From contig DENB01000057.1 of assembly GCA_002359495.1 (NCBI GenBank), positions 58,640 through 122,639 of the forward strand: DNA of 64,000 nucleotides, written 5' to 3'. Origin of the DNA: Enterobacteriaceae bacterium UBA2655 (GTDB taxonomy: Bacteria > Pseudomonadota > Gammaproteobacteria > Enterobacterales > Enterobacteriaceae). Below, one piece after another: positions 48,224 to 64,000 of this stretch (position 1 is the first letter of the stretch; every line of letters starts with the position of its first letter). A program made the translations under genes and the position numbers. The notes below the pieces were generated by a model. The model was not told the origin of the DNA, did no database searches, and saw only the letters and a program-made list of their open reading frames with translations.

Positions 48224-50620
48224 TCAATCCGCCCTGGCTATATCTGCCAGAGTTACCTCGCCGCCCTTCCCGTCCGCCGCGACGCCATCGATAAACAGCT
48301 GACGCTGTTCTCCGGCAGGCAACGTTACTTTCAACGTCTGCCATGCGGGTTGATAGCGGCCTTTGCGTCGGAAGCTGATGCGGATAGCCGAGGCGTCGCA
48401 CGCCATCTCCCAGTGCAGCCACAGCGCGTCGCCCTGCTGATAGCCCCATGACTCGCCGTCATCCTCAAACAGCATGCCGTGCGTAACGCCTTTGCCTTGC
48501 AGCGGAAAAAGCAGCAGTTCGCGCCGATTGTCGGCGACGGCGTCTACATGACGCAGGCGCTGGCTCAGCGGCAGCGCGGCGCCGGCGCGCGCCAGCATCG
48601 GCTGTTGCTCCAGCGGGGCGTCCAGCGTGATCCACTGGCCGCCGCTATACCAGCGATAGGTCGCGAAGTCATACCATCCGGCGTGGTTATTCGGCAGCCA
48701 CAGGCTTCGTTCACGCTGTCCCGGCTCCACTACGCTGGCGACCAGCAGATCGCGACCAAGCATAAACTCATCGCACTCCGCGCTGGTCTGGGCGTCATGC
48801 TCATGATCGAGGAAGGTAGGACGCAGCATCGGCTCATCATCCGCGTGCGCCTGCCACAGCAGGGTATAAAGATAGGGCAGCAGCCGGTAACGCAGTTCGA
48901 TCGCGGCGCGGATCGCGGGCGTCGCCGCCGGATACATCCAGGGTTCATTCACCGTATGGTCGTCGTTCCAGGAGTGAATGGTAAAGCGCGGGTGCATCAC
49001 GCCGTTCTGTACCCAGCGGACAAACAGCTCGGCGTCGGGCTTGTCGCCGGAAAAGCCGCCGACGTCATGGCCGACGTTATACAAGCCGGACAGGCTCATT
49101 CCCAGCCCCATGCGAATGTTGTAGCGTAGAGAGGTCCAGTTGGTGCGGTTATCGCCGCTCCAGGTCTGCACATAGCGCTGCATGCCGGCGCAGCCGGAGC
49201 GGGAGGTCAGGTAAGGTCGTTTTTCCGGCGCAAAGCGCTGCTGCGCTTCCATTGAGGCGCGCATCATCAGCAGCGGCATCACCGGCCGGATATGCTTGAT
49301 AGCGATCGGCTTGCCGAAGCCGTGGCAGCGCGCTTCGCCATCCCAGACTTCATATTCATTATTGTCGTTCCAGGTCGAATCGATGCCCTTCTTCAGCAGC
49401 TGGCGGGTCACATTCTCCTGCCACCAGGCGACCGCCTGCGGATGGGTGAAATCGAGATGCGAACCTTCGTCATCCCAGAAAACCGAGCGTTCAGGCGTAT
49501 CCGCCTCGGAGTTGCGGATAAACAGCCCTTTGGCCGCCACCTCTTCGTAGCGCGGATGATCCTGCAACAGGCAGGGTTTGATGTTGGCGGCGAGGCGCAG
49601 ACCGGCGTCATGAAACGCCTGGCTCATCGCCTCCGGCTGCGGCACTTTGTCGTAGTTCCAGTTGAAAACGTAGCGCTTATTGTTGATCGAGGTGTAGCCC
49701 GATGAGAGCTGGAAGGAGTCGCACGGGATCTCATGCTGCTGGCAGAGACGAATAAAATTCATCAGCTGGTTTTGCGCATCCGGCGCGTCGGTGTAATGCA
49801 TGGTGGAGCCGCTGTAGCCCAGGCTCCATTTCGGGCCAAACAACGTTTTCCCGGTCAGGCGCACAAACGCTTTGGTGACGTCCAGCACCCTGTCGCCGAC
49901 AAACAGGTAGTAATCGATATCGCCGCTTTCAGCCTGCCAGCGGCGATAAGGCTGATGATAGTTATCAAGCTCATTGCCGAGATCGAACCAGCTGCTGCTC
50001 AGGTTATCGTAATAAAGCCCGAAGCTAACCCCGTCGCGGCGGGTGAGGGTGAAAGGCACATGCTTGTACAAGGGATCGGTGGAGGCGGCGTTATAGCCCA
50101 TGGCGTCGAGGTTGCGCATTTCGTAGCGCTTGCCGTTACGCTGCAAATCGCCCGCTTTCTCGCCCAGACCATAATAACGATCGTCATTCATTCGGCGCTG
50201 ATAATGCGCCACGCCGTCGCCATGGGCATTCAGCAGATAGGCGCCGGTAGGACGATCGCTGGCCAGCAACCGCCACTCGCCGGAGGCCGTGCGGTATTGC
50301 CACTCCAGCGACAGCGGTTGACGGATAATCACGCGCAGCGCATCGGTGGCGACGATCAGCCTGTCGTCGTGCGTTTCCAGGCTGAAGCCGGGCAGCGAAA
50401 AGCCCGCCAGGCTGTCGCGCGGGCGCCCTTCCCACGGCACATCGCTGTCCGGCGCGATGCTCCAGGTTCTGTCGAGGGAGAACGCGCCCTCGCGTTTAAC
50501 CACGACGCGAAACAATTTCTGCTCAAGCACATACAGGCAGAACCGGTGTTTGCCCTCAACCATTAACGCCACGTGGTGATTATCCGAACCCGCTAAAGAC
50601 CAGTTTTTTAAAGTTTTCAT
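48224..50620 (-). CDS. glycoside hydrolase family 31 enzyme
   Basis: 798 residues. The GH31 nucleophile is Asp419 in STWNDNNEYEVW and the acid/base Asp490 in QTWSGDNRTNW. An N-terminal beta-sandwich (about 1-250) and a C-terminal beta domain flank the barrel. It has no signal peptide, so it is cytoplasmic and cleaves an alpha-linked glycoside after import. It lies 14 bases downstream of a hexuronate-type MFS gene, and the shared promoter carries UxuR/ExuR-type operators. An alpha-glycoside containing or accompanying hexuronic acid is therefore a plausible substrate. Known GH31 activities include alpha-glucosidase and alpha-xylosidase, so this is open. Confidence 0.88.
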   Translation of the reverse strand: MKTLKNWSLAGSDNHHVALMVEGKHRFCLYVLEQKLFRVVVKREGAFSLDRTWSIAPDSDVPWEGRPRDSLAGFSLPGFSLETHDDRLIVATDALRVIIRQPLSLEWQYRTASGEWRLLASDRPTGAYLLNAHGDGVAHYQRRMNDDRYYGLGEKAGDLQRNGKRYEMRNLDAMGYNAASTDPLYKHVPFTLTRRDGVSFGLYYDNLSSSWFDLGNELDNYHQPYRRWQAESGDIDYYLFVGDRVLDVTKAFVRLTGKTLFGPKWSLGYSGSTMHYTDAPDAQNQLMNFIRLCQQHEIPCDSFQLSSGYTSINNKRYVFNWNYDKVPQPEAMSQAFHDAGLRLAANIKPCLLQDHPRYEEVAAKGLFIRNSEADTPERSVFWDDEGSHLDFTHPQAVAWWQENVTRQLLKKGIDSTWNDNNEYEVWDGEARCHGFGKPIAIKHIRPVMPLLMMRASMEAQQRFAPEKRPYLTSRSGCAGMQRYVQTWSGDNRTNWTSLRYNIRMGLGMSLSGLYNVGHDVGGFSGDKPDAELFVRWVQNGVMHPRFTIHSWNDDHTVNEPWMYPAATPAIRAAIELRYRLLPYLYTLLWQAHADDEPMLRPTFLDHEHDAQTSAECDEFMLGRDLLVASVVEPGQRERSLWLPNNHAGWYDFATYRWYSGGQWITLDAPLEQQPMLARAGAALPLSQRLRHVDAVADNRRELLLFPLQGKGVTHGMLFEDDGESWGYQQGDALWLHWEMACDASAIRISFRRKGRYQPAWQTLKVTLPAGEQRQLFIDGVAADGKGGEVTLADIARAD

Positions 50621-50634
50621 TGTTACCTACTCGT

Positions 50635-51939
50635 TCAGGCGCGCTGAGCGCGACGTTCAGCAATAAAAGCGATCAGGAATACCGCGCCAATCAGGTCGAA
50701 AAAGCCCATGGCGATAAACAGCGGATTGAAGCCGATTTTGTCGGCGGTCACGCCGATGATCAGAGAGAACAAAAAGCTGGAGATCCAGGCGAACGAGCCG
50801 CGCATCCCGTTCACGGTCGCCATCTGCCCTTTATCGAATTTTTCCACCACCAGCGCGCTTAACATGCAGGAGATGATCTGGTGGCCGAAGCCGCCAATGG
50901 AGATCAGCGCAATGGCGACATAGGGGCTTTTAGTCATGGCGACCAGCGCCAGCGATAACATCAGAAATGCGCCGGTTACCGAACTTGCCACCACGGAGTT
51001 AACCAGCCTGAAACCGAACAGTCGGGTATAGAGGCGCGTCAGGTAGCCGCTGGCCGCGCTGCCTAGGTCGGCCGCGAGAAACGGCAGCCAGGCGAACATG
51101 GCGATCTGTTTTAAATCCATGCCTAAATCTTTCGCCAGGTAGAGCGGCACCCAAAAGCTCAGCACGCCCCAGGCCGGCTCCGCCATAAAGGCCGGAATGG
51201 CGATGCCGTAAAAACGTCTGTTTTTCGAGACGGATTTCAGCGCCTTGAAAAAGCTCTGTTTGACAGCAGGCGGTTCATTATCCTGACGAATAAATTCCAG
51301 CTCCTTCGCGCCCAGATTGGGATGCCGTTCAGGATCGCGATAAAACAGCCACCACAGTACCACCCACGCCAGCGCCAGCAAGCCGGTGAACAGGAAAGCG
51401 CCCTGCCAGCCGAACGAAGCATGGGCGAAGTAGATGATCGGCGGCGCCAGCATCGCACCGATAGAGAAACCGACGCCTGCCCAGCCTGCGGCCACCGGAC
51501 GCTCTTTTTTCGGAAACCATTCGCCGATCACCTTGGCGTTCGCCGGGGTCGCCGCGGCCTCCGCGCCGCCCATAACAAAGCGCAGGATCGCCAGATGCGC
51601 CCAGCTGGCGGCGCCGGCATGAAACAGACAGGCCAGCGCCCAAATCGAGGCGCAGAACAGAAAGCCAAGTTTCAGGCCGATAACGTCGATCAGCCAACCG
51701 CACACCGGCTGAAAAAAAGTGTAGGCCAGCTGGAAGGCGCCGACGATCCAGGAATATTGCTCGGTGGTAATGCCCAGGCTGGTTTTCAGCTCCGGCGCCA
51801 GAATGCCTAACGAGTTGCGGGTAATGTAGTTAACCGTTACGCCCGCTAAAAACAGCACCAATACCCACCAGCAGCGCAAATTGCGCCAGGTTCGTTTATT
51901 GCCAGCGGCAGCTATCGCCGGATTTAAACTGCGGTTCAT
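50635..51939 (-). CDS. MFS transporter, hexuronate/anion:cation symporter family (ExuT-like)
   Basis: 434 residues from ATG 51939, which has GGAG seven bases before it. The GTG at 51951 is less likely. About 12 membrane spans are present. The family pattern is VTVNYITRNSLGILAPEL, then QYSWIVGAFQLAYTFFQPVC and RFVMGGAEAAATPANAKVIG. It is first gene of the minus-strand operon with the GH31 enzyme and likely brings in a hexuronate or hexuronate-containing disaccharide by H+ symport. Confidence 0.87.
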   Translation of the reverse strand: MNRSLNPAIAAAGNKRTWRNLRCWWVLVLFLAGVTVNYITRNSLGILAPELKTSLGITTEQYSWIVGAFQLAYTFFQPVCGWLIDVIGLKLGFLFCASIWALACLFHAGAASWAHLAILRFVMGGAEAAATPANAKVIGEWFPKKERPVAAGWAGVGFSIGAMLAPPIIYFAHASFGWQGAFLFTGLLALAWVVLWWLFYRDPERHPNLGAKELEFIRQDNEPPAVKQSFFKALKSVSKNRRFYGIAIPAFMAEPAWGVLSFWVPLYLAKDLGMDLKQIAMFAWLPFLAADLGSAASGYLTRLYTRLFGFRLVNSVVASSVTGAFLMLSLALVAMTKSPYVAIALISIGGFGHQIISCMLSALVVEKFDKGQMATVNGMRGSFAWISSFLFSLIIGVTADKIGFNPLFIAMGFFDLIGAVFLIAFIAERRAQRA

Positions 51940-52149
51940 TGGGTTCTCCACTTTTTTGCGTCATGGAATAGCAATTCCCGCTGTAAACAGAGGCGGACCG
52001 CCGGCGTTCCTGCGCGAAACAACCCGCGTGCAGCACAGCTTTCTCATCGCCTGATAAGGGAATTTTTTTCAGCGGGTCGTCTCTGACCATCCGTTCGGAG
52101 TGAAGCACAGTTGCCTGAACGGGTCGCCAACCGGATAGCGCATTTGTGA

Positions 52150-52163
52150 CGTGGTTAACCAAA
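52150..52163. promoter_or_regulatory. UxuR/ExuR-type operator 1 (TGGT-TA-ACCA core)
   Basis: CGTGGTTAACCAAA matches the ATTGGTNNACCAAT-type box of UxuR and ExuR at the core. It sits in the 388-base divergent region between the MFS gene and uxuA, which holds no gene. Confidence 0.6.
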
Positions 52164-52254
52164 TTGATAACAAAGGTTGACAACAACCGTCATAAAGCTG
52201 AGTTTTAGCGCGATAAAGCTGAAAATCGATAAGGTGCGGCCTGTTACCGCTATT

Positions 52255-52268
52255 ATTGGTCAACCAAT
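52255..52268. promoter_or_regulatory. UxuR/ExuR-type operator 2 (ATTGGT-CA-ACCAAT)
   Basis: An exact match to the symmetric half-sites of the UxuR/ExuR consensus, 60 bases before uxuA. With operator 1 it would control both divergent transcripts through the UxuR-like protein encoded at 53754. Confidence 0.75.
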
Positions 52269-52327
52269 TTACCCGTTTCGCCGGTTCGCCTGCGCTATCC
52301 GGTCAAACATCCCGGTGAGGTAACAAC

Positions 52328-53506
52328 ATGAAGCAGACCTGGCGCTGGTATGGCCCAAACGATCCTGTCTCCCTCGCTGATGCGCGCCAGGCCGGCGCGA
52401 CCGGCATTGTGACGGCGTTGCACCACATTCCGAACGGCGACGTGTGGCCGGTGGAAGAGATCATGAAGCGTAAGGCGACCATCGAAGCCGCAGGCTTAGT
52501 CTGGTCGGTGGTAGAAAGCGTGCCGGTTCATGAAGAGATAAAAACCGGCAGCGGTCGCTGTCAGCAGTGGATCGCCCATTACCAGCAGTCGCTGCGCAAC
52601 CTGGCGCAATGCGGCATCACCACCGTCTGCTATAACTTTATGCCGATCCTCGATTGGACGCGCACCGACCTGGAATACCGGCTACCGGACGGCGCCAAAG
52701 CTCTGCGCTTCGACCAGATAGAATTCGCCGTTTTCGAACTGCATATTCTGCAACGCCATGACGCGGAAAAAGATTACACCGCGACCGAGATCGCCCAGGC
52801 CGCTGAACGCTTCGCCGGCATGAGCGAGGAGAGCAAAATGCGTCTGACCCGCAACATAATCGCCGGCCTGCCGGGCGCGGAAGAGGGCTACACCCTCGAT
52901 CAGTTTCGCGCGCAGCTGGCGCGCTACGAAGGCATCGGCAAAGCGCAGCTGTGCGAGAACTTCGCTACCTTCCTGCGCGGCGTTATTCCGGTGGCGGAAG
53001 AGCTCGGCGTCAGGATGGCCGTGCACCCGGACGATCCGCCGCGCCCGATCCTCGGCCTGCCGCGCATCGTCTCAACCGCTGACGATCTGCAATGGATGAT
53101 CGATACCCTCGACAGCCCGGCGAACGGCTTCACGATGTGTACCGGCTCCTACGGCGTTCTGCCGGAAAACGATCTGGTGGGCATGGTGGCGCGCTTCGGC
53201 CCGCGCATCTGGTTTGCCCATCTGCGCTCGACCCAACGCGAAGAGAACCCGAGAAGCTTCCATGAGGCCGCGCATCTGGCGGGCGACGTGGATATGTTCG
53301 CGGTGATCAAAGCCATCGCCGAAGAGGAGCACCGGCGCAAAGCGGCCGGTCAGGACGACCCGATCCCGATGCGCCCCGACCACGGCCATCAGATGCTGGA
53401 TGATTTGCAGAAGAAAACCAATCCCGGCTATTCGGCGATCGGGCGCCTGAAAGGCCTGGCTGAAATCCGTGGCGTCGAGCTGGCTATCCAGCGCGCTTTT
53501 TTCTGA
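52328..53506 (+). CDS. uxuA: mannonate dehydratase, enterobacterial type
   Basis: 392 residues, starting [20 protein letters not shown] like E. coli UxuA. It has the family segments [56 protein letters not shown] and [12 protein letters not shown]. It converts D-mannonate to 2-keto-3-deoxygluconate in glucuronate breakdown. No uxuB follows, so fructuronate reductase must be encoded elsewhere. It is the second UxuA in the window and clearly a different lineage from the one at 43585. Confidence 0.93.
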
Positions 53507-53753
53507 GTACCGACGCCCGCGCACACGCGGGGCGTCGTCGTTCAATCGCCTGGTCCAGGTGCCTTTTGATGACCCGATTTATCGCATGATGCAGAATATC
53601 TGCTGCCTTAATGCGCAGCGCTAGTTTGCCGTTGCCGCCTCATAACAGGCGCCGGGCGGCGGCCGGGGCTGCTGGCCCGCACATCGGCTATGATATAGTG
53701 CAGCAGCGGCCGCGCCAGAAACGTTACTTCCTTAATCAGCAGAAATGAGCCTT

Positions 53754-54518
53754 ATGAAAACACAAGCTTCGCCCCAGCGCCCTTATCAGGAAGTCGGAGA
53801 AACGCTGCGCAATATGATTGCGCAACAACGATATGCTGTCGGCGAACGGCTGCCGCCCGAGCGCGAAATCGCCGCGATGCTGAACGTTACCCGTACGCTG
53901 GTGCGCGAAGCCCTGATCATGCTGGAGCTGGAAGGATTGATCGAAGTGCGCCGCGGCGCCGGCATCTATGTGATCAATCACAGCCCGTCGCAGGCCTTGC
54001 CTGCGCGCAGCGCCTGCAATGATGCCGGCCCGTTCGAACTGTTGCAGGCCCGGCAGCTGCTGGAGAGCAATATCGCGGAATTCGCGGCGTTGCAGGCGAC
54101 GCGCGAAGACATCGTTAAAATGCGCCAGGCGCTGGAGCTGGAGGAGAAGGAGCTGACTTCCGGCGCGGTCGAAGGAACAGAAAACGGCGATCGCGATTTT
54201 CATCTGGCGATCGCCGAAGCGACCCACAACAGCATGCTGGTGGAACTGTTTAAGCAGTCCTGGCAGTGGCGGGAAGATAACGTGATGTGGAGCCAGCTGC
54301 ACCGTCATCTGGTCAACAACGACTATCGCAAACAGTGGCTGGGCGATCATAAAAAGATCCTTGCCAGCCTGATTAAAAAGGATGCGCGCGCCGCCAAGCT
54401 GGCGATGTGGCAGCATCTGGAAAACGTCAAACAGCGCCTGCTGGAGTTTTCCGACGTCGATGACCTCTGGTTTGACGGCTACCTGTTCGACTCCTGGCCG
54501 CTGGATAATCAGGCCTGA
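53754..54518 (+). CDS. GntR/FCD-family repressor, UxuR/ExuR-like
   Basis: 254 residues from ATG 53754 (MKTQASPQRPYQEVGETLRN), matching the UxuR N-terminus. ATG 53745 adds three residues and is possible. The winged helix is RLPPEREIAAMLNVTRTLVR then EALIMLELEGLIEVRRGAG, and the FCD effector domain shows DFHLAIAEATHNSMLVELF. It likely represses uxuA and the GH31/MFS operon via the boxes at 52150 and 52255, with fructuronate or a related hexuronate as inducer. It could be UxuR or ExuR. Confidence 0.87.
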   Translation: MKTQASPQRPYQEVGETLRNMIAQQRYAVGERLPPEREIAAMLNVTRTLVREALIMLELEGLIEVRRGAGIYVINHSPSQALPARSACNDAGPFELLQARQLLESNIAEFAALQATREDIVKMRQALELEEKELTSGAVEGTENGDRDFHLAIAEATHNSMLVELFKQSWQWREDNVMWSQLHRHLVNNDYRKQWLGDHKKILASLIKKDARAAKLAMWQHLENVKQRLLEFSDVDDLWFDGYLFDSWPLDNQA

Positions 54519-55594: not shown

Positions 55595-56662
55595 ATGAAA
55601 AAAGTTTTAGCCATTGCGATTATGGCGTTACTTTCTGATAACGCCGCCGCCGCGATGATTTACAATGCCAATGGGAATAAACTCGACTTTTACGGCAGCG
55701 TGCGTGGAAGACATTATTTCAGTGAAAAGTCGAGTCAAGATGGCGACTTCACTTATATTCGTTTCGGCTTCAAAGGCCAGACGAAAATTAATGAATCGAT
55801 GACCGGCTATGGACAGTGGGAATATCAGGTTCAGGCGAATAACGCCGAGTCCAGCGGCAACGGTTCTGATAAAACCCGACTCGGTTTTGCCGGCCTGAAG
55901 TTCGGGCGCTGGGGTTCGATCGATTACGGGCGCAGCTATGGCGTTTATTACGATCTGGCCAGCATTACCGATCTGGCGCCGATCTACGACATCATGACCG
56001 ACAGCTATATGGATGGTTTCATGACGGGTCGCGCCAATAACCTGCTGACTTACCGTAACAAACAGCTGTTCGGCTTCAGTAATCTGTTGTTCACCTTGCA
56101 ATATCAGGGCGCCAATGGGCCTGGAGAAAATAACGATTCTCGCTCGGTTTATACGGCCAATGGCGACGGCTCGGGCGTCAGCCTGGAGTGGGACGTTACC
56201 GACGACCTCGCGCTTCTTGGGGCTTATGCCTCTTCGCGTCGGACCGCTACGCAAAACGCGCTGTTGCTCGGCGAAGGGGAGCGGGCGGAAATCTGGGGCG
56301 TCGGGGTAAAATATAATCCTGGCTCGGCGTGGCTGGCGTTGAAATATTCAGAAGGCCATAATATTACGCCCATCTCCGGCTTTGGTTACGCTAATAAAAC
56401 GCAAAACGTCGAAGCCTATACGCAATATACTTTCCTTAACGGCATCGTTCCTTCCCTGGGGTATTTTCAGTCCGAGGGAAAAGCGCTGGAAGGCTATGGG
56501 AATGTTAAATTGCTGAAGTACGTCGATGCTTCCTTGCGCTATTATCTCAACAAGAACATGTCTGTCTACGGCGATTATCGTATTAATCTTCTCGATAAAA
56601 ACACGCCTTTTAATATTTTAACGGATGATACTTTCGGGCTGGGCATTACCTGGCAGTTTTAA
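55595..56662 (+). CDS. general outer-membrane porin (OmpC/OmpF-type)
   Basis: 355 residues with a short signal peptide (VLAIAIMALLSDNAAAA). The trimeric porin pattern is clear: IYNANGNKLDFYGSVRG, YIRFGFKGQTKINESMTGYG, RLGFAGLKFGRWGSIDYGRS and the terminal Phe (FGLGITWQF) needed for outer-membrane assembly. The constriction loop 3 (about residues 118-140) is diverged and acidic. It stands next to a LysR gene and the RutA/BMP-type module, so it may admit that module's substrate. That is a positional inference. Confidence 0.9.
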   Translation: MKKVLAIAIMALLSDNAAAAMIYNANGNKLDFYGSVRGRHYFSEKSSQDGDFTYIRFGFKGQTKINESMTGYGQWEYQVQANNAESSGNGSDKTRLGFAGLKFGRWGSIDYGRSYGVYYDLASITDLAPIYDIMTDSYMDGFMTGRANNLLTYRNKQLFGFSNLLFTLQYQGANGPGENNDSRSVYTANGDGSGVSLEWDVTDDLALLGAYASSRRTATQNALLLGEGERAEIWGVGVKYNPGSAWLALKYSEGHNITPISGFGYANKTQNVEAYTQYTFLNGIVPSLGYFQSEGKALEGYGNVKLLKYVDASLRYYLNKNMSVYGDYRINLLDKNTPFNILTDDTFGLGITWQF

Positions 56663-56670
56663 TTCAGCCA

Positions 56671-56707
56671 ACCGGCTGTTTGCCTGAACGGCCGGTCTTT
56701 ATTTATC
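56671..56707 (+). terminator. terminator after the porin gene
   Basis: ACCGGC with a 14-base loop and GCCGGT, followed by the T-rich tail CTTTATTTATC, begins eight bases after the porin stop. Confidence 0.6.
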
Positions 56708-56854: not shown

Positions 56855-57769
56855 GTGAATTTAAATACTTATAAATATTTCAATGAAGTCGCGGCGACAG
56901 GCTCTATTCGCCGGGCGGCGGACAGGCTGCATGTCGCGCCTTCTGCGATCAGTCGCCAGATTGCGCTGCTGGAACACAGCCTTGGCATTATGTTGCTTGA
57001 AAGAAGCAACACCGGCATTCAGCTCACCCCTGCGGGCATGATGCTGGAACGCTATACGCGCAAGATGTGTCGGGACCTCGACCGCATTCACGAATCGATA
57101 AAAAATCTTAAGGGGCTTCGCCAGGGCGAAGTGAAAATGTGGGTTATTGAAGCTGTGGTGCAGGAAGTTTTGCCGCGCATTATGACGGAATTCAATAAAA
57201 ATTATCCTGCCATTCAATTTTCCATTAATACCGAATCCTCCGACCGCACGATTGAAGCCATCGTCAGCGATGAGATCGATATCGGCATCGTTTACAACCT
57301 GGGAAATCGCGCCGGTATTGAGATCGTCAAACAATGCCCGGCGCCTGTTCAGTGTCTGGTGTCGCCGACGCATCCGCTGGCGCAACGGCACTCTCTCACT
57401 CTGGAAGATATTTGCGCTTATCCTGTCGCGCTTCCGGTCTCCAGCTTCGGCTTACGGCAGACCTTTGACAAAGTGACCCGCTCGCTGCACCTGATCCCGC
57501 AATCCATCGTGAATACCAATAATCTGGAATTGACCAAGGCGATGGCGATCGCCGGACGGACGCTCACCATAGGCCCGAAGCTCATCGCAGTTAAGGAGAT
57601 CGAGCAGGGATTGCTGTGCGCCGTTCCTGTCGATAATAACGCCATGGCATCGGCGAGCATTGAAATTTGCGTGCATCGCGACCGTTCGCTCTCTTCCGCC
57701 GCGCATCAGTTTCTCAAACAGGTCTGTAAAGAATTCGATCGGATAACGTTCTCCTCTTCCACGCCATAA
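56855..57769 (+). CDS. LysR-family transcriptional regulator of the RutA-like module
   Basis: 304 residues from GTG 56855. The helix-turn-helix is TGSIRRAADRLHVAPSAISR then QIALLEHSLG, and the effector domain includes CLVSPTHPLAQRHSLTLEDI. It precedes the hydrolase, monooxygenase and ABC genes on the same strand with a 253-base gap, and likely activates them. LysR activators usually respond to a pathway metabolite. Confidence 0.87.
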   Translation: MNLNTYKYFNEVAATGSIRRAADRLHVAPSAISRQIALLEHSLGIMLLERSNTGIQLTPAGMMLERYTRKMCRDLDRIHESIKNLKGLRQGEVKMWVIEAVVQEVLPRIMTEFNKNYPAIQFSINTESSDRTIEAIVSDEIDIGIVYNLGNRAGIEIVKQCPAPVQCLVSPTHPLAQRHSLTLEDICAYPVALPVSSFGLRQTFDKVTRSLHLIPQSIVNTNNLELTKAMAIAGRTLTIGPKLIAVKEIEQGLLCAVPVDNNAMASASIEICVHRDRSLSSAAHQFLKQVCKEFDRITFSSSTP

Positions 57770-58022
57770 CTTTTTATTCCGCCGTCTGAAAAGGCTGCGC
57801 TATCAGGTAAGTCATCGCTTCTCCTTATGGCCCAGCGACATATTGTCTGTTTTCAACGGGATTCATTAGCGCCCGCCGCCAGTTGGCCGGCGTGTACTAA
57901 AACAGGCAACGCGGCGTGCTGCACTCAGTATTACTTATCACCAAAATCGCCGTGTTATTTATCAGGCATCGCTTAATTCATAAACCTGACAGGTATGAAA
58001 AAAATCCAATAAGGGTAGAGAG

Positions 58023-58829
58023 ATGCCGAACGTTATCACCAACGGGATAAACACGCACTATGAGATCAGGGGAACGGGCGAGGCGCTGATTTTTGTCTCG
58101 GGCCTCGGCGGAACCGCAGCCTACTGGCAGCCGCAGCTGGAAGCGTTCAGTAAAAATTTCACCGTCGTGACTTACGATCAGCGCGGCGCAGGCCTGTCCG
58201 ATCATCCTGAAGGCCCTTACAGCATCGAAACGCTGGCAGACGATCTGCAAGCATTAATCGACGCGCTAAAGCTGGAACGGCCGATTCTGGTTGGTCACTC
58301 TACAGGCGGCGCGATCGGGCAACACCTTGCCGCCCGGGATCCGCAGCGGCTGGCCGCGATGGTGCTGTACGCCAGCTGGGCGAAATCAGACCGCCATTTC
58401 AACTGGTGCTTTCGTATGCGCCGGGCCTTACTGGTTGGCAGCACCCTGGAAGAGTATGTTCACGGCAGCGCGCTGTTTCTCTATCCGCCGGAGCATCTGA
58501 AAAACCATGCCGAAGTTCTGTCGCCGGCGTTGCTGGCCTCGGCGTCCCGCTTTCCGCAGCGCGAAGTCATACTGAGCCGCATTGACGCCATTATGGCGCA
58601 TGATGCCACCGCCTCGTTGTCGTCCATCCAGACGCCTACGCTGGTGGTCTGCGCGCAGGATGACATTCTTACCCCGCCTTATCAGTCCCGCCTGCTTGCC
58701 GACGCGATTCCAGGGGCGGAACTTAACATCGTGCCACAAGGCGGGCACAGCTTTTCTGAAACCGAAACCACGTTATTCAACCAAATTACGCTCGATTTTC
58801 TGGCGGATGTCCGCCAGTCAGCGCACTGA
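58023..58829 (+). CDS. alpha/beta hydrolase, RutD-like
   Basis: 268 residues. The pattern follows RutD (VSGLGGTAAYWQPQLEAF, TYDQRGAGLSDHPEGPYSI, LFLYPPEHLKNHAEVL). It has a regular nucleophile elbow VGHSTGGAIGQ (Ser93), Asp in CAQDDILTPP and His in GGHSFSETE, so a full Ser-Asp-His triad is present. As I recall, E. coli RutD has GHALG here. RutD speeds hydrolysis of an aminoacrylate or carbamate intermediate of uracil breakdown. The same type of hydrolysis on another ring-opened product is likely. It is 15 bases upstream of the monooxygenase. Confidence 0.8.
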   Translation: MPNVITNGINTHYEIRGTGEALIFVSGLGGTAAYWQPQLEAFSKNFTVVTYDQRGAGLSDHPEGPYSIETLADDLQALIDALKLERPILVGHSTGGAIGQHLAARDPQRLAAMVLYASWAKSDRHFNWCFRMRRALLVGSTLEEYVHGSALFLYPPEHLKNHAEVLSPALLASASRFPQREVILSRIDAIMAHDATASLSSIQTPTLVVCAQDDILTPPYQSRLLADAIPGAELNIVPQGGHSFSETETTLFNQITLDFLADVRQSAH

Positions 58830-58844
58830 TTTAAGGGGATCTGC

Positions 58845-59966
58845 ATGTCTGGTCACGACAACCGAAATGTTGAATTTGGCGTTTTTTTGCCGGTGGGCAA
58901 TGGCGGCTGGATCACCTCCACCACCAGCCCCCAGCTGCCTGCGACTTATGAATACAACAAGCAGGTCGCGATCTTAGCTGAACAGCTGGGTTTCGACTTC
59001 GCGCTGTCGATGGCGAAATGGCGCGGCTACGGCGGCCCTTCGCGGCACTGGGATATTACCCTCGAAAGCCTGACCACTATGGCCGGCCTCGCCGAGGCGA
59101 CGAGCCGTATCGGCGTATGGGGCACGGTGCATACGATGGTGTTCCATCCGGCGGTGGTCGCCAAAATGACCGCCGTGCTCGATCAAATCTCTCGCGGCCG
59201 GTTCGCGCTGAACATCGTTTCCGGTTCTAACCCCTCCGATCAGGGTCAGATGGGCCTCTGGATGGACCTCGATCATGCGGAACGCTATGAGCTCGCCGCT
59301 GAATGGCTCACCGTCCTGAAACGTCTCTGGACCGAGGAACGGGTCGATCATGAAGGCAAGCATTATCAGCTGACCGACTGCATGTCCAATCCGAAGCCAG
59401 CCACGCCGCCGCCCATTATCTGCGCCGGCGCGTCAGACCGCGGCTTCCTGTTCACCATGAAACACTGTACCGCCAGCTTCATGCTCGGCTCCGATCACGA
59501 CGACTTTATCCGAACCGGCCTGCGCGCCAAAGAACTGGCGATGCAGCAGGGCAAGCCGGACTTTAAAACCTACGGGCTTTTTACCATCGTGCCCGGCGTC
59601 ACCGATGCCGAAGCGCGCGAACGCGTCGAGCGCTATGACGCCGGCGTCGACACCGTCGCACTGGATAACCAGACCCGCGAATATTCCGGCGACAAAAGCT
59701 TTAAACAGAACACCATGGCGCAGCGTTTCGTCTCTCAGGGCGAACAGCGTAATTCCATGACGCGCGCGGCGCTGGTCGGCTCGCCCGAGACCATCGGCAC
59801 CAAACTGGCCGCCATTATCAAGGGAGCGAAACTTGATGGCGTAACGGTGATCGTGCCGGACTTTATCGATGATTTACGCACGGTCGGCACCGAGGTGCTG
59901 GAAGTCCTCGAACTGCACGGCGTGAATACCCATGCGCGCGCCTGGCAAAAAAGCCAGCAGCCTTAA
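58845..59966 (+). CDS. LLM-class flavin-dependent monooxygenase, RutA-like
   Basis: 373 residues of the luciferase-like monooxygenase fold, closest by eye to RutA. It reads NVEFGVFLPVGNGGWITST, DFALSMAKWRGYGGPSRHWD, TMAGLAEATSRIGVWGTVHT, RFALNIVSGSNPSDQGQMGL and PPPIICAGASDRGFLF. RutA opens the uracil ring with O2 and reduced FMN. Here no other rut gene (B, C, E, F, G) is present, and transport is by an ABC system. The substrate is therefore probably another heterocycle, amide or purine/pyrimidine derivative. A partner flavin reductase must come from elsewhere. Confidence 0.84.
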   Translation: MSGHDNRNVEFGVFLPVGNGGWITSTTSPQLPATYEYNKQVAILAEQLGFDFALSMAKWRGYGGPSRHWDITLESLTTMAGLAEATSRIGVWGTVHTMVFHPAVVAKMTAVLDQISRGRFALNIVSGSNPSDQGQMGLWMDLDHAERYELAAEWLTVLKRLWTEERVDHEGKHYQLTDCMSNPKPATPPPIICAGASDRGFLFTMKHCTASFMLGSDHDDFIRTGLRAKELAMQQGKPDFKTYGLFTIVPGVTDAEARERVERYDAGVDTVALDNQTREYSGDKSFKQNTMAQRFVSQGEQRNSMTRAALVGSPETIGTKLAAIIKGAKLDGVTVIVPDFIDDLRTVGTEVLEVLELHGVNTHARAWQKSQQP

Positions 59967-60048
59967 TCAACGGCAACGCCTTCGCTGAGCACGCGTTTAT
60001 TCCCTTAATCAATTTTTCTCCGCTATGCGGAATGCCAGGAGCAGAGCT

Positions 60049-61014
60049 ATGAAAATGAAAACGATGTTAACCGCCGCGGTTGCTGTAGCCCTCTTTTGCG
60101 GCTCCGTCGCGCATGCCGAAGAGAACAAACCGCGCGTGGCCGCGCTGTTCACCCAGACCGTGACGCAGGGCACATGGGATATGTCAGGTTACGCGGCGTT
60201 CAAAGCGATGGCGACGCAGGATAACTTCACGCCCAGCTACCTTGAACATACCAGCTACGAGTCCGCGCCTTCAGTGCTGCGTCAGCTGGCTTCCGATGGC
60301 GTGAAGCTGATTATTGCGCACTCTTCCGGCTATTCAGCCGCCATCAAAGAGGTCGCGCCTTCCTTTCCCAATACGCAGTTCGTGCTCTACTCCTATGAAG
60401 GTTCGACGGCGAATCTGCCCAATTATTCGGCCTGGTCAGTTGACTGGGACGAATATGGATTCGTACTGGGCGTACTAGGCGCGATGGCGAGTGAGAACGG
60501 TCATATCGCGGTGATCAGCGGCGAACCTATTCCCTCCGCCGAGCGCACGGTAGAGTTCATCAAAAAAGGAGCAGCCTACGTTAACCCCGGCGTACAGGTG
60601 GATTCCGCTTATGTCGGCTCGTTCACGGACGTGGCTCGCGCCAAGGAGATCGCTACCGGCGCTATCGCCCGGGGAGCGGACTTTATTATTCCTTCAGCCG
60701 ACACCGCCGACGCAGGCATTCAGCAGGCCGCCGATGAGGAAGGGGTGCTGACTATCGGTTCTTACGCCGATCAATCGAAGACGTTCCCCAATTCCGTTAT
60801 GACGTCAACGGTGATGAACTTCAATAAATCCTACGCCGATATCGGCAAGCACTACGCCGATCGCCAACTCGGCAACCGTATCGTCACGGAAGATCTGGCC
60901 ACCAACGGCTGGACGCTCTCAACCCCCTTCGCCCATGTCGGAAAAGATGTGCAGGAGAAGGTGTTTAAAGTCATCGACAAGCTCAAAACCGGCAAACTCA
61001 AGCCAGGAGCCTGA
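60049..61014 (+). CDS. BMP-family ABC transporter substrate-binding protein (PnrA/nucleoside class)
   Basis: 321 residues from ATG 60049, preceded by GGAGCAGAG. The frame also extends 24 bases upstream. A signal peptide (AAVAVALFCGSVAHA) without a lipobox precedes a BMP domain: PRVAALFTQTVTQGTWDMSG, SAAIKEVAPSFPNTQFVLYS, VLGVLGAMASENGHIAVISG and DFIIPSADTADAGIQQAADE. The family binds nucleosides, nucleobases or related heterocycles. It starts the ABC cassette right after the RutA-like gene. Confidence 0.88.
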   Translation: MKMKTMLTAAVAVALFCGSVAHAEENKPRVAALFTQTVTQGTWDMSGYAAFKAMATQDNFTPSYLEHTSYESAPSVLRQLASDGVKLIIAHSSGYSAAIKEVAPSFPNTQFVLYSYEGSTANLPNYSAWSVDWDEYGFVLGVLGAMASENGHIAVISGEPIPSAERTVEFIKKGAAYVNPGVQVDSAYVGSFTDVARAKEIATGAIARGADFIIPSADTADAGIQQAADEEGVLTIGSYADQSKTFPNSVMTSTVMNFNKSYADIGKHYADRQLGNRIVTEDLATNGWTLSTPFAHVGKDVQEKVFKVIDKLKTGKLKPGA

Positions 61015-61016
61015 GG

Positions 61017-62528
61017 ATGAACTCCACTCCTGTCATCGAACTCGATCATGTATCGAAGCGCTACCCCAACGGTTTTGTCGCGCTTGAGAAAGTGTGTTTG
61101 TCATTTTATCCGGGGGAGATCCACGCGCTACTGGGCGAGAACGGCGCGGGTAAGTCGACGTTGATGAATATTCTGTATGGCGTGCATGAACCCAGCGAGG
61201 GAGGCGTGCTGATGAACGGCCGACAGGTGATCCACCGTCGGCCTGCCGATGCTATCGCGAACGGCATCGGCATGGTGCATCAGCATTTCAAACTTGTCGC
61301 GCCGTTTACGGTAGCGGAAAACCTCGCGCTGGTGGCGCGGGGAGAACGGAAGAAGAGGTTCCGCCGCCTGGCCGAGGTCAGGGCCTTTATGCAGGCTTAT
61401 GGCGCCGATCTCGACCCCCGGGCCGTGGTCGGACAACTTCCTCTGGCCTTGCAGCAGCGGGTGGAGATCCTCAAGGCGCTGGTGAACGACACCCGCGTGC
61501 TGTTGCTGGATGAGCCTTCCACCATCCTTACCCCCACGGAGATCGACGCGCTGTACGACACCTTAGGTCGTATTTGCGCGCAGGGTACGGCGGTGGCGGT
61601 CGTCACCCACAATGTGGACGAGGTGCTGTCGCACGCCGACCGCTACACCGTGCTAAGACGAGGAAAAACCAACGGCACGGGACTAACCCGCGGCTGCGCT
61701 CCTGACGTGCTGGTCGAAAAAATCGTAGGCCGGGCGGTAGCGACCGGAACCCGTCTGGGTTCGCCGCGTTCGGCCGGCCGGGAAAGGCTGCGTTTAGACG
61801 CGATGACGCTGCGTCCGGCGAGCGGTTCGCCGGGGCTGCACGCGCTTACCCTGGCGCTGCGCGAACGGGAAGTAACAGGCATAGCGGGCGTCGAAGGCAA
61901 CGGACAAACCGAACTCTTTGAACTGCTGGCAGGCCAGCGTCAGCCCGAGGGTGGGGAGATGAAGCGTTGCGGGCCGGACGTTACCGTCGCGCTGGTGCCG
62001 CAGGACCGCCATCACGAAGGATTGTCGCTGGATCTGCCCGTTTCCCACAACCTGCTCTATCCGAAGATTATGCAGGGTCAATTCCGGCGCGTCGGGCTGC
62101 TGGATCATGCGGCGATAGCGGAGCGCGCCAGGGAGATGATCGCCCGCGCGGATATTCGCACCCACTCTCACGCCAGCCCTGCCCGCTCGCTCTCCGGCGG
62201 CAACCAGCAGAAGATCGTGGTGGCGCGGGCGCTGGCGGAGACGGCGTCAATCATCGTGGTGTATCAACCGACAAGAGGACTGGATATGGCCGCAGCGGAG
62301 GCGGTGCTGTCGCGCCTTGCCCAGGCGGCGGACAGCGGCGCCAGCGTCATGATTATCTCCTCAAACGTCGAGGAGCTTATTCGCGTGTCGGACCGCATTC
62401 TGGTGATGAATGGCGGCAGGATAACCGGCGAAGTCGCCGGCAGTAACATGTCCGTTGAAAAAATCGGCGCCCTGATGACGCAGGGCGCGGGCGCACAGTC
62501 AAAAGCCGCAGAGGGTGAATATGTCTGA
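61017..62528 (+). CDS. ABC transporter ATPase, two modules, BMP-associated (YufO-like)
   Basis: 503 residues. Module 1 has Walker A ALLGENGAGKSTLMNILYG, Q-loop GMVHQHFKLV and Walker B RVLLLDEPSTILTP, with a degenerate signature (LPLALQQRVEILKAL). Module 2 has GVEGNGQTELFELLAG and a full signature SLSGGNQQKIVVARAL, then VVYQPTRGLDMA where most relatives have an acidic Walker B. It begins two bases after the binding-protein stop and overlaps the permease by eight. Confidence 0.9.
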   Translation: MNSTPVIELDHVSKRYPNGFVALEKVCLSFYPGEIHALLGENGAGKSTLMNILYGVHEPSEGGVLMNGRQVIHRRPADAIANGIGMVHQHFKLVAPFTVAENLALVARGERKKRFRRLAEVRAFMQAYGADLDPRAVVGQLPLALQQRVEILKALVNDTRVLLLDEPSTILTPTEIDALYDTLGRICAQGTAVAVVTHNVDEVLSHADRYTVLRRGKTNGTGLTRGCAPDVLVEKIVGRAVATGTRLGSPRSAGRERLRLDAMTLRPASGSPGLHALTLALREREVTGIAGVEGNGQTELFELLAGQRQPEGGEMKRCGPDVTVALVPQDRHHEGLSLDLPVSHNLLYPKIMQGQFRRVGLLDHAAIAERAREMIARADIRTHSHASPARSLSGGNQQKIVVARALAETASIIVVYQPTRGLDMAAAEAVLSRLAQAADSGASVMIISSNVEELIRVSDRILVMNGGRITGEVAGSNMSVEKIGALMTQGAGAQSKAAEGEYV

Positions 62529-63618
62529 ATCTGTAAAACCGTTGGCGGAAACAGGCGCATCGTTCCGTCGTTTCCTGATGAGGATGAGCGCCTCGCCGTC
62601 GCTGTGGGTCACGCTCAGCGCCTTTGTCGGCTCGCTGCTGCTCGGACTCGCGTTAATCGCCAGTATGGGCGTTTCGCTTCCCGCCGCGGCGAGCGTCGCC
62701 TTTGAAGGGGCATTCGGCAACATCCGCGCACTGGCAGATACCCTGGTCTTTATGACGCCCCGACTGCTGGTCGCGCTTGGCACGCTGATCGCTATCCGCG
62801 GCGGGATGTTCAACCTCGGCGGCGAAGGACAACTGCAGATGGGAGCGATTGGCGCCATGCTGCCCTTTCTGGCATTCGGCGATATCGGCCCCGCGTTGTT
62901 GCCGCTCGCCATCCTCAGCGGCGCGCTGTGCGGCGCCTTGTGGGGCGTGATCCCCGCCGTGCTTAAACTCTGGCGCGGCATTGATGAAATCATCGTCACG
63001 CTAATGATGAATTTTATCGCCATCTACTTTCTGAAATATCTGGTGCAAGGCCCGATGCGCCCTGTCGGCTCCAACTTCAATATGTCCGCGCAGCTGCCGT
63101 CGGATGGCGTATTTCATGCGGTGATAGCGGGAACGCGCCTGCACTCCGGGGTATTTCTGGCCCTGCTGATTGCCCTGCTCGTCTGGGTTCTGCTGCAGCA
63201 TACCGCTTTCGGGTTGAAGCTGCGGGCCAGCGGCCAGAGTCCGCGCTTCGTGCGTTTACAGGGAGAGTCCGCCGCGCAGACGGTGCTTGCAAGCATGGCG
63301 CTGTCCGGCGCGGCAGGCGGTCTGGCCGGGACTTTTGAGGTGCTCGGCGTGCAGTATCGCCTGATCGACGGCTTTTCGTCGGGGCTCGGTTTTGAAGGAC
63401 TCGCCGTCGCGTTCCTGGCCGGGCTGGAGCCGTTCGGCGCGATCATCGTCTCGCTTTATTTCGGCGCGATTAACAGCGCGGCGCTGGCGCTGCAAAGCAC
63501 GTTTTCGATTCCGGCGGCGCTGGCTGATGTGCTGAGCGGCCTGCCCATCCTGCTGCTGGCGGTGATGAGCGGCGTGATGCTGGTGAAAGGGAGGCCGGTA
63601 TGGACTTCAACGCTGTAA
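62521..63618 (+). CDS. BMP-associated ABC transporter permease 1 (YufP-like)
   Basis: 365 residues with about 9-10 membrane spans. The typical segment is LIAIRGGMFNLGGEGQLQMG, followed by GIDEIIVTLMMNFIAIYFLK and GFSSGLGFEGLAVAFLAGLE. ATG 62521 is the natural start inside the ATPase end. The stop overlaps the next permease by 19 bases. Confidence 0.9.
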   Translation: MSESVKPLAETGASFRRFLMRMSASPSLWVTLSAFVGSLLLGLALIASMGVSLPAAASVAFEGAFGNIRALADTLVFMTPRLLVALGTLIAIRGGMFNLGGEGQLQMGAIGAMLPFLAFGDIGPALLPLAILSGALCGALWGVIPAVLKLWRGIDEIIVTLMMNFIAIYFLKYLVQGPMRPVGSNFNMSAQLPSDGVFHAVIAGTRLHSGVFLALLIALLVWVLLQHTAFGLKLRASGQSPRFVRLQGESAAQTVLASMALSGAAGGLAGTFEVLGVQYRLIDGFSSGLGFEGLAVAFLAGLEPFGAIIVSLYFGAINSAALALQSTFSIPAALADVLSGLPILLLAVMSGVMLVKGRPVWTSTL

Positions 63619-64000
63619 CGCTGGCCCTGTTTCTGGCGGGAGGATTGCGGCTTTGCGTGCCCGTACTGCTTGCCGCGCTGGGCGAAACCGTTTCCGAGCG
63701 CGCCGGGGTATTCACTATCGGGCTTGAAGGGTTGATGCTGTTCGGCGCCTCGGCTTCGGCGCTGGGGCTGGCCGTCAGCGGCTCTCCCGTGACGGCGCTG
63801 GCCGCCGGCATGCTGGGCGGTCTGCTGGCGGCGGCCGACCTGGCGCTGGGAACGGTTTTCGCCCGGTCGAACCAGATCGTCATGGGCATCGGCTTCAATC
63901 TGTTCGCCGTCGGCGCAACCTCGCTGATCCGGCAGATCTGGCTGGCTGACGCGCCTGCTGCGGGATCGATGCGCGCCGTCTCCATGCTGAAACTGCCTTG
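63600..64000 (+). CDS. BMP-associated ABC transporter permease 2 (YufQ-like), cut by the window end
   Basis: The first 133 codons are seen. ATG 63600 lies inside the end of permease 1. The sequence ALGETVSERAGVFTIGLEGL and then LMLFGASASALGLAV matches the N-terminal spans of the second permease in nucleoside-class importers, which are about 300 residues. The frame is open to the window end. Together with permease 1 it forms the membrane channel. Confidence 0.88.
   Translation, partial: MDFNAVTLALFLAGGLRLCVPVLLAALGETVSERAGVFTIGLEGLMLFGASASALGLAVSGSPVTALAAGMLGGLLAAADLALGTVFARSNQIVMGIGFNLFAVGATSLIRQIWLADAPAAGSMRAVSMLKLP

Follow-up and report, generated by a model that had tools for sequence, protein, structure and literature searches.

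A Rut-type operon of an Enterobacteriaceae bacterium that probably helps break down the pyrimidine half of vitamin B1

The operon described here lies at the end of a 64,000-nucleotide stretch of DNA (the window; C14:58640-122639, GenBank contig DENB01000057.1) from Enterobacteriaceae bacterium UBA2655, whose assembly comprises 4.1 Mb in 112 contigs and is 91.75% complete. It encodes a RutA-like luciferase-like (LLM) monooxygenase dependent on flavin mononucleotide (FMN), a RutD-like hydrolase and a BMP-type ATP-binding cassette (ABC) importer, and it probably helps break down the pyrimidine half of vitamin B1 (thiamin). With a probability of roughly 0.57, it represents the downstream half of an oxidative pathway of the Rut type whose substrate is a 2-methyl-4(3H)-pyrimidone made from the pyrimidine of thiamin; the likeliest such compound is 5-(hydroxymethyl)-2-methylpyrimidin-4-one. 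The initial annotation had proposed import and oxidative opening of some heterocycle other than uracil. A dedicated pathway distinct from the uracil Rut pathway was upheld, with a BMP protein nearest to the free-base binder AtzT, while two points had to be given up, namely that rutC, rutE and rutF are absent and that a porin takes part. We infer a narrower substrate, a pyrimidone whose tie to thiamin-pyrimidine salvage comes from gene neighbourhoods.

The link to thiamin was found in the neighbourhoods of related genes. The 31 loci compared consist of 27 stretches of named genomes, three plasmid stretches (of five plasmid matches) and the window's own contig past its end (L002); their open reading frames (ORFs) were called by codon-usage scoring, since length alone is poor on GC-rich loci. 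As revealed by tblastn, relatives of a deaminase-like TRZ/ATZ amidohydrolase are linked to the RutA-like gene at 11/31 loci, and thiaminase II (TenA), an M20 deacylase (putative deformylase) and all three parts of a THI5-type importer occur together at the same 8/31 loci; none of these is present in a close form in the window's own genome. The linked amidohydrolase of L057 lies at L057:5935-7263. The RutA-like genes of Paenibacillus (L030) and Cohnella (L026) are about 61% identical to that of the window and are accompanied by the M20 deacylase, TenA, an SsuE-type FMN reductase, the THI5-type ABC importer and the TRZ/ATZ amidohydrolase. The L030 deacylase, which we take to be of the Bacillus subtilis YlmB family, scored 729 bits to NF006370 (cut-off 412), and the TenA proteins of L030 and L026 gave 228 and 206 bits (cut-off 130). 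The same gene kinds stand beside a BMP-type operon in Rhizobiaceae and Acidisoma, with the TenA of L012 at 125 bits, just below 130. In the L022 genome, TenA and the deacylase lie just beyond the fetched flank, and Curtobacterium carries a small version made up of NCS1-type permease, amidohydrolase, RutA-like and Rid genes.

Both gene sets are contiguous on plasmid pLA6_003 of a Paracoccaceae bacterium, whose RutA is 86% identical to that of the window. The depositor's names there run from 'putative thiamine biosynthesis protein' with SsuC and SsuB through 'melamine deaminase', 'thiaminase-2', 'N-formyl-4-amino-5-aminomethyl-2-methylpyrimidine deformylase' and ribB to LysR, RutD, RutA, Rid, BMP, ATPase, two permeases, RutC and an aldo/keto reductase (AKR). 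On plasmid pENH92 of Cupriavidus necator NH9 (L056), a 62%-identical RutA-like gene is found together with a Rieske oxygenase pair, a formaldehyde dehydrogenase and ribBA/ribA; these last genes, as well as ribB of pLA6_003, perhaps supply flavin.

Linkage was further assessed in 26 genomes chosen for carrying the monooxygenase, some of which are close kin, and the counts are thus not independent. Close deaminase relatives (at least 59% identical to the L016 query) were present in nine genomes, in all nine cases within 10 kb of the RutA-like gene. Similarly, the deacylase was present in seven genomes and always within 12 kb, and TenA gave 12 matches in 11 genomes, seven of them within 11 kb. 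The linkage holds in Pseudomonadota and Bacillota, although their genes are ordered differently, and that of the deaminase extends to Actinomycetota. According to the available part of PMC5627462, ylmB, TenA and ThiXYZ serve the salvage of base-degraded thiamin, and it is the same gene kinds (deformylase, TenA, ThiXYZ) that stand beside the RutA-like gene at the 8/31 loci. The difference is that salvage rebuilds thiamin, whereas here the deaminase and the ring-opening enzyme would destroy the pyrimidine; in addition, a thiamin pyrophosphate (TPP) riboswitch was absent in the seven loci scanned.

The nearest solved structures of the monooxygenase were those of RutA, by sequence and by fold, and not those of another LLM subfamily of known substrate. 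Its predicted structure (predicted local distance difference test, pLDDT, 93.2; predicted template modelling score, pTM, 0.91) matched the RutA folds 6sgl/5wan best. All top five Foldseek hits were RutA entries (TM-score 0.82-0.83 on the query, 35-36% identity), followed by SfnG. Meanwhile, the canonical RutA sequences compared were 33-37% identical to the protein, which misses the RutA equivalog TIGR03612 (Table 1). In RutA, the O2 pocket is formed by Thr105 and Asn134, and Trp139 borders the other cavity, as described in the accessible part of PMC10005588. Equivalents of Thr105 and Asn134 were kept in 106/106 near relatives in our alignment, while the Trp139 position, which faces the substrate, held Ser in 105 of them and Cys in one, compared with Trp in 20/20 canonical RutA sequences; no conserved column of the alignment matched Glu292. 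The near group of 106 contains 95 (P0001-P0095) of the 120 listed homologues, ten loci and the window, and the comparison groups were the 20 canonical RutA sequences and 19 more distant relatives; P0096, P0097, P0098, P0101, P0102 and P0103, mostly short, were left out. The 19 distant RutA-like enzymes (P0099, P0100 and P0104-P0120; 49-52% identity, many labelled pyrimidine oxygenase) also carry Ser in place of Trp139, which is thus a mark of a wider group. We read the enzyme as one that would retain the oxygen chemistry of RutA in a changed substrate pocket.

The operon is distinct from the uracil Rut pathway, in which RutA/RutF cut uracil at N3-C4 to ureidoacrylate and RutB then acts (PMC8113886, PMC10005588, each in its available part). 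RutB was found at 0/31 loci (tblastn at 1e-10), and the genome's own RutB (439 bits) lies on another contig, C34, side by side with a canonical RutA (708 bits). The initial annotation was therefore right that rutB is absent. Its claim that rutC, rutE and rutF are also missing was a window artefact, because the contig continues with RutC-like, RutE and RutF-like genes past the window edge; the RutC-like and RutF-like proteins miss their cut-offs, and RutE passes (Table 1). As for rutG, there was no RutG-like permease among the listed ORFs, no separate RutG search being made. A RutA over the cut-off co-occurs in 17/26 genomes carrying the window-type enzyme, and the window-type gene is thus not the uracil enzyme in those 17 genomes. 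The uracil pathway was set aside on account of the RutB absence, the missed cut-offs and this co-occurrence.

Like Escherichia coli Rut (rutABCDEFG), the operon unites a two-component FMN monooxygenase, a RutC-like Rid, a RutD-like hydrolase, RutE and a RutF-like reductase in one unit, and the O2-site Thr and Asn are kept. Unlike it, the operon has no RutB, imports by a BMP-type ABC system, contains an extra AKR and a second Rid, and encodes an enzyme with Ser for Trp139; it also carries a LysR regulator, whereas the genome's own canonical locus has one of the TetR type. That canonical locus (C34, L093:2677-5972) comprises rutA, rutB, rutD and the TetR-type regulator; its rutC reading is split across two frames, and rutE, rutF and rutG do not directly follow rutD. 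The RutE and RutF-like proteins of the window operon might serve both pathways.

From the gene content, linkage, families and residue changes observed, we infer a substrate, a set of reactions and an order of steps as follows. In the complete version, the THI5-type ABC importer would take up formylaminopyrimidine, which the M20 deformylase and TenA would convert to 4-amino-5-hydroxymethyl-2-methylpyrimidine (HMP). The TRZ/ATZ amidohydrolase would swap the 4-amino group for oxygen, giving a 4-pyrimidone with a C2 methyl. The RutA-like/RutF-like pair would then cut the N3-C4 amide using FMNH2 and O2. As C2 bears methyl instead of oxo, the product would be an amidine or N-acyl (N-acetyl) enamine plus acid and not a ureide, which would make RutB unneeded and explain its absence. 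The RutD-like hydrolase could split this product and the two Rid proteins would convert the enamine to ammonia and a semialdehyde, acetate or acetamide being set free in the course of these steps; AKR and RutE would reduce the semialdehyde. Lacking the upstream half, the window's lineage would import the pyrimidone as such through the BMP system.

The RutD-like protein matched Est1 and RutD at 1e-40 and 4e-39, and more weakly the vitamin B6 degradation hydrolase 3kxp (E 4.4e-14). The latter is alpha-(N-acetylaminomethylene)succinate hydrolase, an enzyme of the alpha/beta fold that cleaves an N-acetyl enamine once a 2-methyl ring has been opened, and by analogy the RutD-like protein could share this chemistry. 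At somewhat less than even odds, we propose a catabolic pathway that destroys the vitamin B1 pyrimidine, in which degraded thiamin would be imported and converted via HMP to a 2-methyl-4-pyrimidone for RutA-type opening, and whose gammaproteobacterial downstream-only form would take up pyrimidone made by others. No paper on thiamin-pyrimidine ring opening was found by title or abstract start, which is weak evidence given that most subscription journals lay outside the search, and the available main text of PMC4433059, on Rid neighbourhoods, mentions none of RutA, LysR, luciferase, monooxygenase or ABC transporter.

Several observations weigh against a thiamin-derived substrate. In the window's genome, TenA had no match at 1e-20, no deformylase over the cut-off was found, and the amidohydrolases are only remote (at most 28% identical). 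Close forms of the deaminase, TenA and deformylase were found in 0/12 gammaproteobacterial genomes; the same absence in all twelve makes an assembly gap an unlikely cause, and the window's substrate has thus to be inferred from other lineages. TenA lies on other contigs in 5/12 cases, and the amidohydrolase was over no cut-off among the models listed. The model NF006370 is itself named acetylornithine deacetylase, and its cut-off was passed in only 1/14 control genomes. The formylaminopyrimidine reading of the M20 protein is putative and follows one depositor's label. Weak YlmB matches are often other M20 proteins, as stated in the accessible part of PMC10470507. The missing TPP riboswitch counts on the same side. 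Kinship of the loci inflates the counts (L016 and L058 are near-identical), and the change from Trp139 to Ser, common to the 19 distant relatives, is by itself no marker of this substrate. Taken together, we hold a thiamin-linked substrate for the window's own operon with moderate confidence. The simplest reading is that the upstream half was lost after transfer and that the BMP importer now feeds the ring-opening enzymes.

It is somewhat unlikely that the gammaproteobacterial branch, including the window, acts on some other small ring of plant or bark origin (a further 4-pyrimidone, a pyridone, a lactam or a cyclic imide) and that thiamin pyrimidines are used only in lineages with the upstream genes. 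This would agree with the absence of close upstream genes in all twelve gammaproteobacterial genomes, with the absence of a close deaminase in 5/14 others, with the operon's own importer and with the seven changes that the deaminase label requires on the tree. Against it, the Rhodobacterales locus L022, whose genome has the full gene set nearby, encodes monooxygenase, BMP, RutC-like and AKR proteins with 77-88% identity to their counterparts here, and the residues marked on the pocket side do not differ within the group. In the tree, ten gammaproteobacterial rows form one group (support 98), which joins the two Rhodobacterales rows L022 and L057 (12 rows, support 100), both with the full gene set in their neighbourhood. 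It should be pointed out that the branches of the three outgroup rows are very long and that the group does not form a strict clade, with P0099 and P0100 falling among Bacillota and Cupriavidus rows. The tree took in 10/20 canonical RutA sequences and 7/19 distant relatives and left out L025 and L028 (split frames) as well as L027 and L029 (partial).

It is improbable that the system detoxifies or scavenges thiamin antivitamins such as bacimethrin, the 2-methoxy analogue of HMP, rather than supporting growth on the thiamin pyrimidine. The Rieske oxygenase with its VanB-type reductase and the formaldehyde dehydrogenase at Cupriavidus L056 are what a demethylation would need, and release of bacimethrin by a cyanobacterium is reported in the available part of PMC12345177. 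In the pLA6_003 and Rhizobium clusters, in contrast, the RutA-like gene has no Rieske pair for a neighbour; deformylase and TenA suggest that degraded thiamin is the source, and the presence of reductases and two importers, which are assimilation genes, speaks for a nutritional role. It is very improbable that the operon duplicates the canonical pathway for uracil or thymine: the enzyme kinds are those of Rut, with RutE over its cut-off and the canonical locus incomplete behind rutD and split in rutC, but RutB, the RutA, RutC and RutF cut-offs and Trp139 are all missed, RutA proper co-occurs, and the neighbourhood is one of thiamin salvage.

The anatomy of the operon is hereby corrected with high confidence (Table 1). 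The genes from LysR to permease 2 are all on the + strand, separated by 253, 15, 58, 2, -14 and -19 bases, so the places, common strand and short gaps or overlaps given by the initial annotation are correct apart from the 253-base gap behind LysR. The window cuts the operon, and the contig beyond it carries the remaining genes. Two unresolved bases (NN) follow right behind the window end within permease 2, and the RutC-like Rid, AKR, RutF-like and RutE genes all lie at most 3.3 kb past it. The ABC genes thus belong to an operon that does continue beyond the window, with related genes. Further downstream, a UbiD-type decarboxylase gene on the - strand follows the second Rid gene; it was rejected as an operon part, with zero matches across the 27 related loci.

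Table 1. Features of the operon and its surroundings. Positions are those of the window; L002 is the same contig past the window (L002 coordinate + 55360 = window scale).
Feature	Position	Strand	Remarks
Porin_1 protein	55595-56662		outside operon; terminator-like hairpin 3' of gene
LysR-type regulator	56855..57769	+	PF00126/PF03466; adjoins RutA-like gene in most related loci
Conserved box 5' of RutD-like gene	57897..57923	+	inverted GCA...TGC core; candidate LysR operator
RutD-like alpha/beta hydrolase	58023..58829	+	TIGR03611, 238.5 bits; printed cut-off also 238.5
RutA-like FMN-dependent LLM monooxygenase	58845..59966	+	predicted ring-opening enzyme; TIGR03612, 273.2 bits; curated cut-off 498.3
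BMP-family substrate-binding protein	60025..61014	+	PF02608; nearest solved sequence AtzT 6pi5
Two-domain ABC importer ATPase	61017..62528	+	PF00005, two stretches
ABC importer permease 1	62515..63618	+	PF02653
ABC importer permease 2, 5' part	63600..64000	+	gene continues beyond window; about 313 aa full length in relatives
RutC-like Rid	L002 9208-9609	+	beyond window; 109 bits, RutC cut-off 169
Aldo/keto reductase (AKR)	L002 9677-10684	+	beyond window
RutF-like flavin reductase	L002 10699-11286	+	beyond window; 132 bits, RutF cut-off 255
RutE family member	L002 11319-11900	+	beyond window; 300 bits, cut-off 152
Second Rid	L002 11944-12378	-	beyond window

The porin does stand beside the operon, as initially annotated, but is no part of it: a terminator-like hairpin (56671-56696; four such sites were found in the stretch against 1.7 expected) lies behind the porin gene, and a porin match was absent from all 27 related loci. 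Before it, window positions 48224-54518 hold a hexuronate-type region (family-31 glycosidase, MFS transporter, UxuA mannonate dehydratase and GntR regulator), to which the porin may belong.

Each of the residues Ser93, Asp214 and His242 of the RutD-like protein is conserved in 95% or more of the 22 sequences aligned. In our reading of the sequence they would form the catalytic triad, in line with the full Ser triad annotated before. The RutC-like Rid keeps Arg109, which we take to be the Arg required for imine hydrolysis in RidA (PMC4433059, available part), and the second Rid has Ser at the apparent counterpart, judged by eye. Within the box upstream of the RutD-like gene, the core CAAC-N6-TGC-N-G is kept in 11/11 aligned upstream regions from Enterobacterales and Pseudomonas, with a hairpin-like core at 57906-57922; the box may be a LysR operator.

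The importer is of the BMP family, with a PF02608 binding protein, a two-domain ATPase and a PF02653 permease. Its proteins scored below the cut-offs of the putative vitamin B6 ABC transporter models (NF047927, 102.8 vs 400; NF047930, 405.9 vs 670; NF047929, 137.2 vs 400 bits), on which ground a vitamin B6 importer was rejected. AtzT binds guanine and 2-hydroxyatrazine, according to the available part of PMC6834077. By hand mapping of uncertain register, Ser97 and one ring-stacking aromatic of AtzT are apparently kept in the operon's BMP protein, while the guanine-holding Glu165, Asn218 and Asn220 appear replaced, and guanine is therefore an unlikely ligand.

The search for RutA-like genes beside BMP-type transporters, as proposed initially, showed that the set recurs in changed order in Enterobacterales, Pseudomonas, Rhizobiaceae, Acidocellaceae and Rhodobacterales, which is more than chance; relatives of the monooxygenase occur in three phyla (Pseudomonadota, Bacillota and Actinomycetota). 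Most Enterobacterales loci share the window-type order LysR, RutD, RutA, BMP, ATPase, two permeases, RutC-like Rid, AKR and RutF-like. The Pseudomonas loci keep this order with the second Rid right after RutA, L005 having no AKR match. Relatives of the second Rid were found at 29/31 loci and those of the RutC-like Rid at 23/31. RutE was matched at only 3/27 related loci (L004, L008 and L018) and is thus optional. Among 392 sampled genomes of its family, four of them further members of its genus, the window's own was the only carrier of a window-type gene, and likewise among 398 of its phylum; these samples show patchiness and not true frequency.

The RutA-like gene is in two pieces in Pantoea rodasii (L025) and Erwinia sp. 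S63 (L028), by decay or sequencing errors, and in L025 so are the LysR, ATPase and permease genes. An Acetobacteraceae version of the cluster contains an ammonium-transporter-like gene (L024:6654-8009; 111 bits to TIGR00836, below the cut-off), which fits ammonia release. Several carriers, namely Erwinia typographi, Pseudomonas typographi, P. bohemica, Serratia sp. M24T3 and Sinirhodobacter populi (L006, L007, L008, L010 and L022), have names or sources that point to bark beetles, pine nematodes or the bark of trees.

Members of this monooxygenase family are labelled 'pyrimidine oxygenase' or 'RutA' by their sources, and the present analysis names an enzyme set and one candidate substrate that are directly testable. 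If the proposal is true, these genes would account for losses in the vitamin B1 cycle, whose pyrimidine salvage is already described, and Rut-type flavin amide cleavage would act on a ring that gives no ureide.

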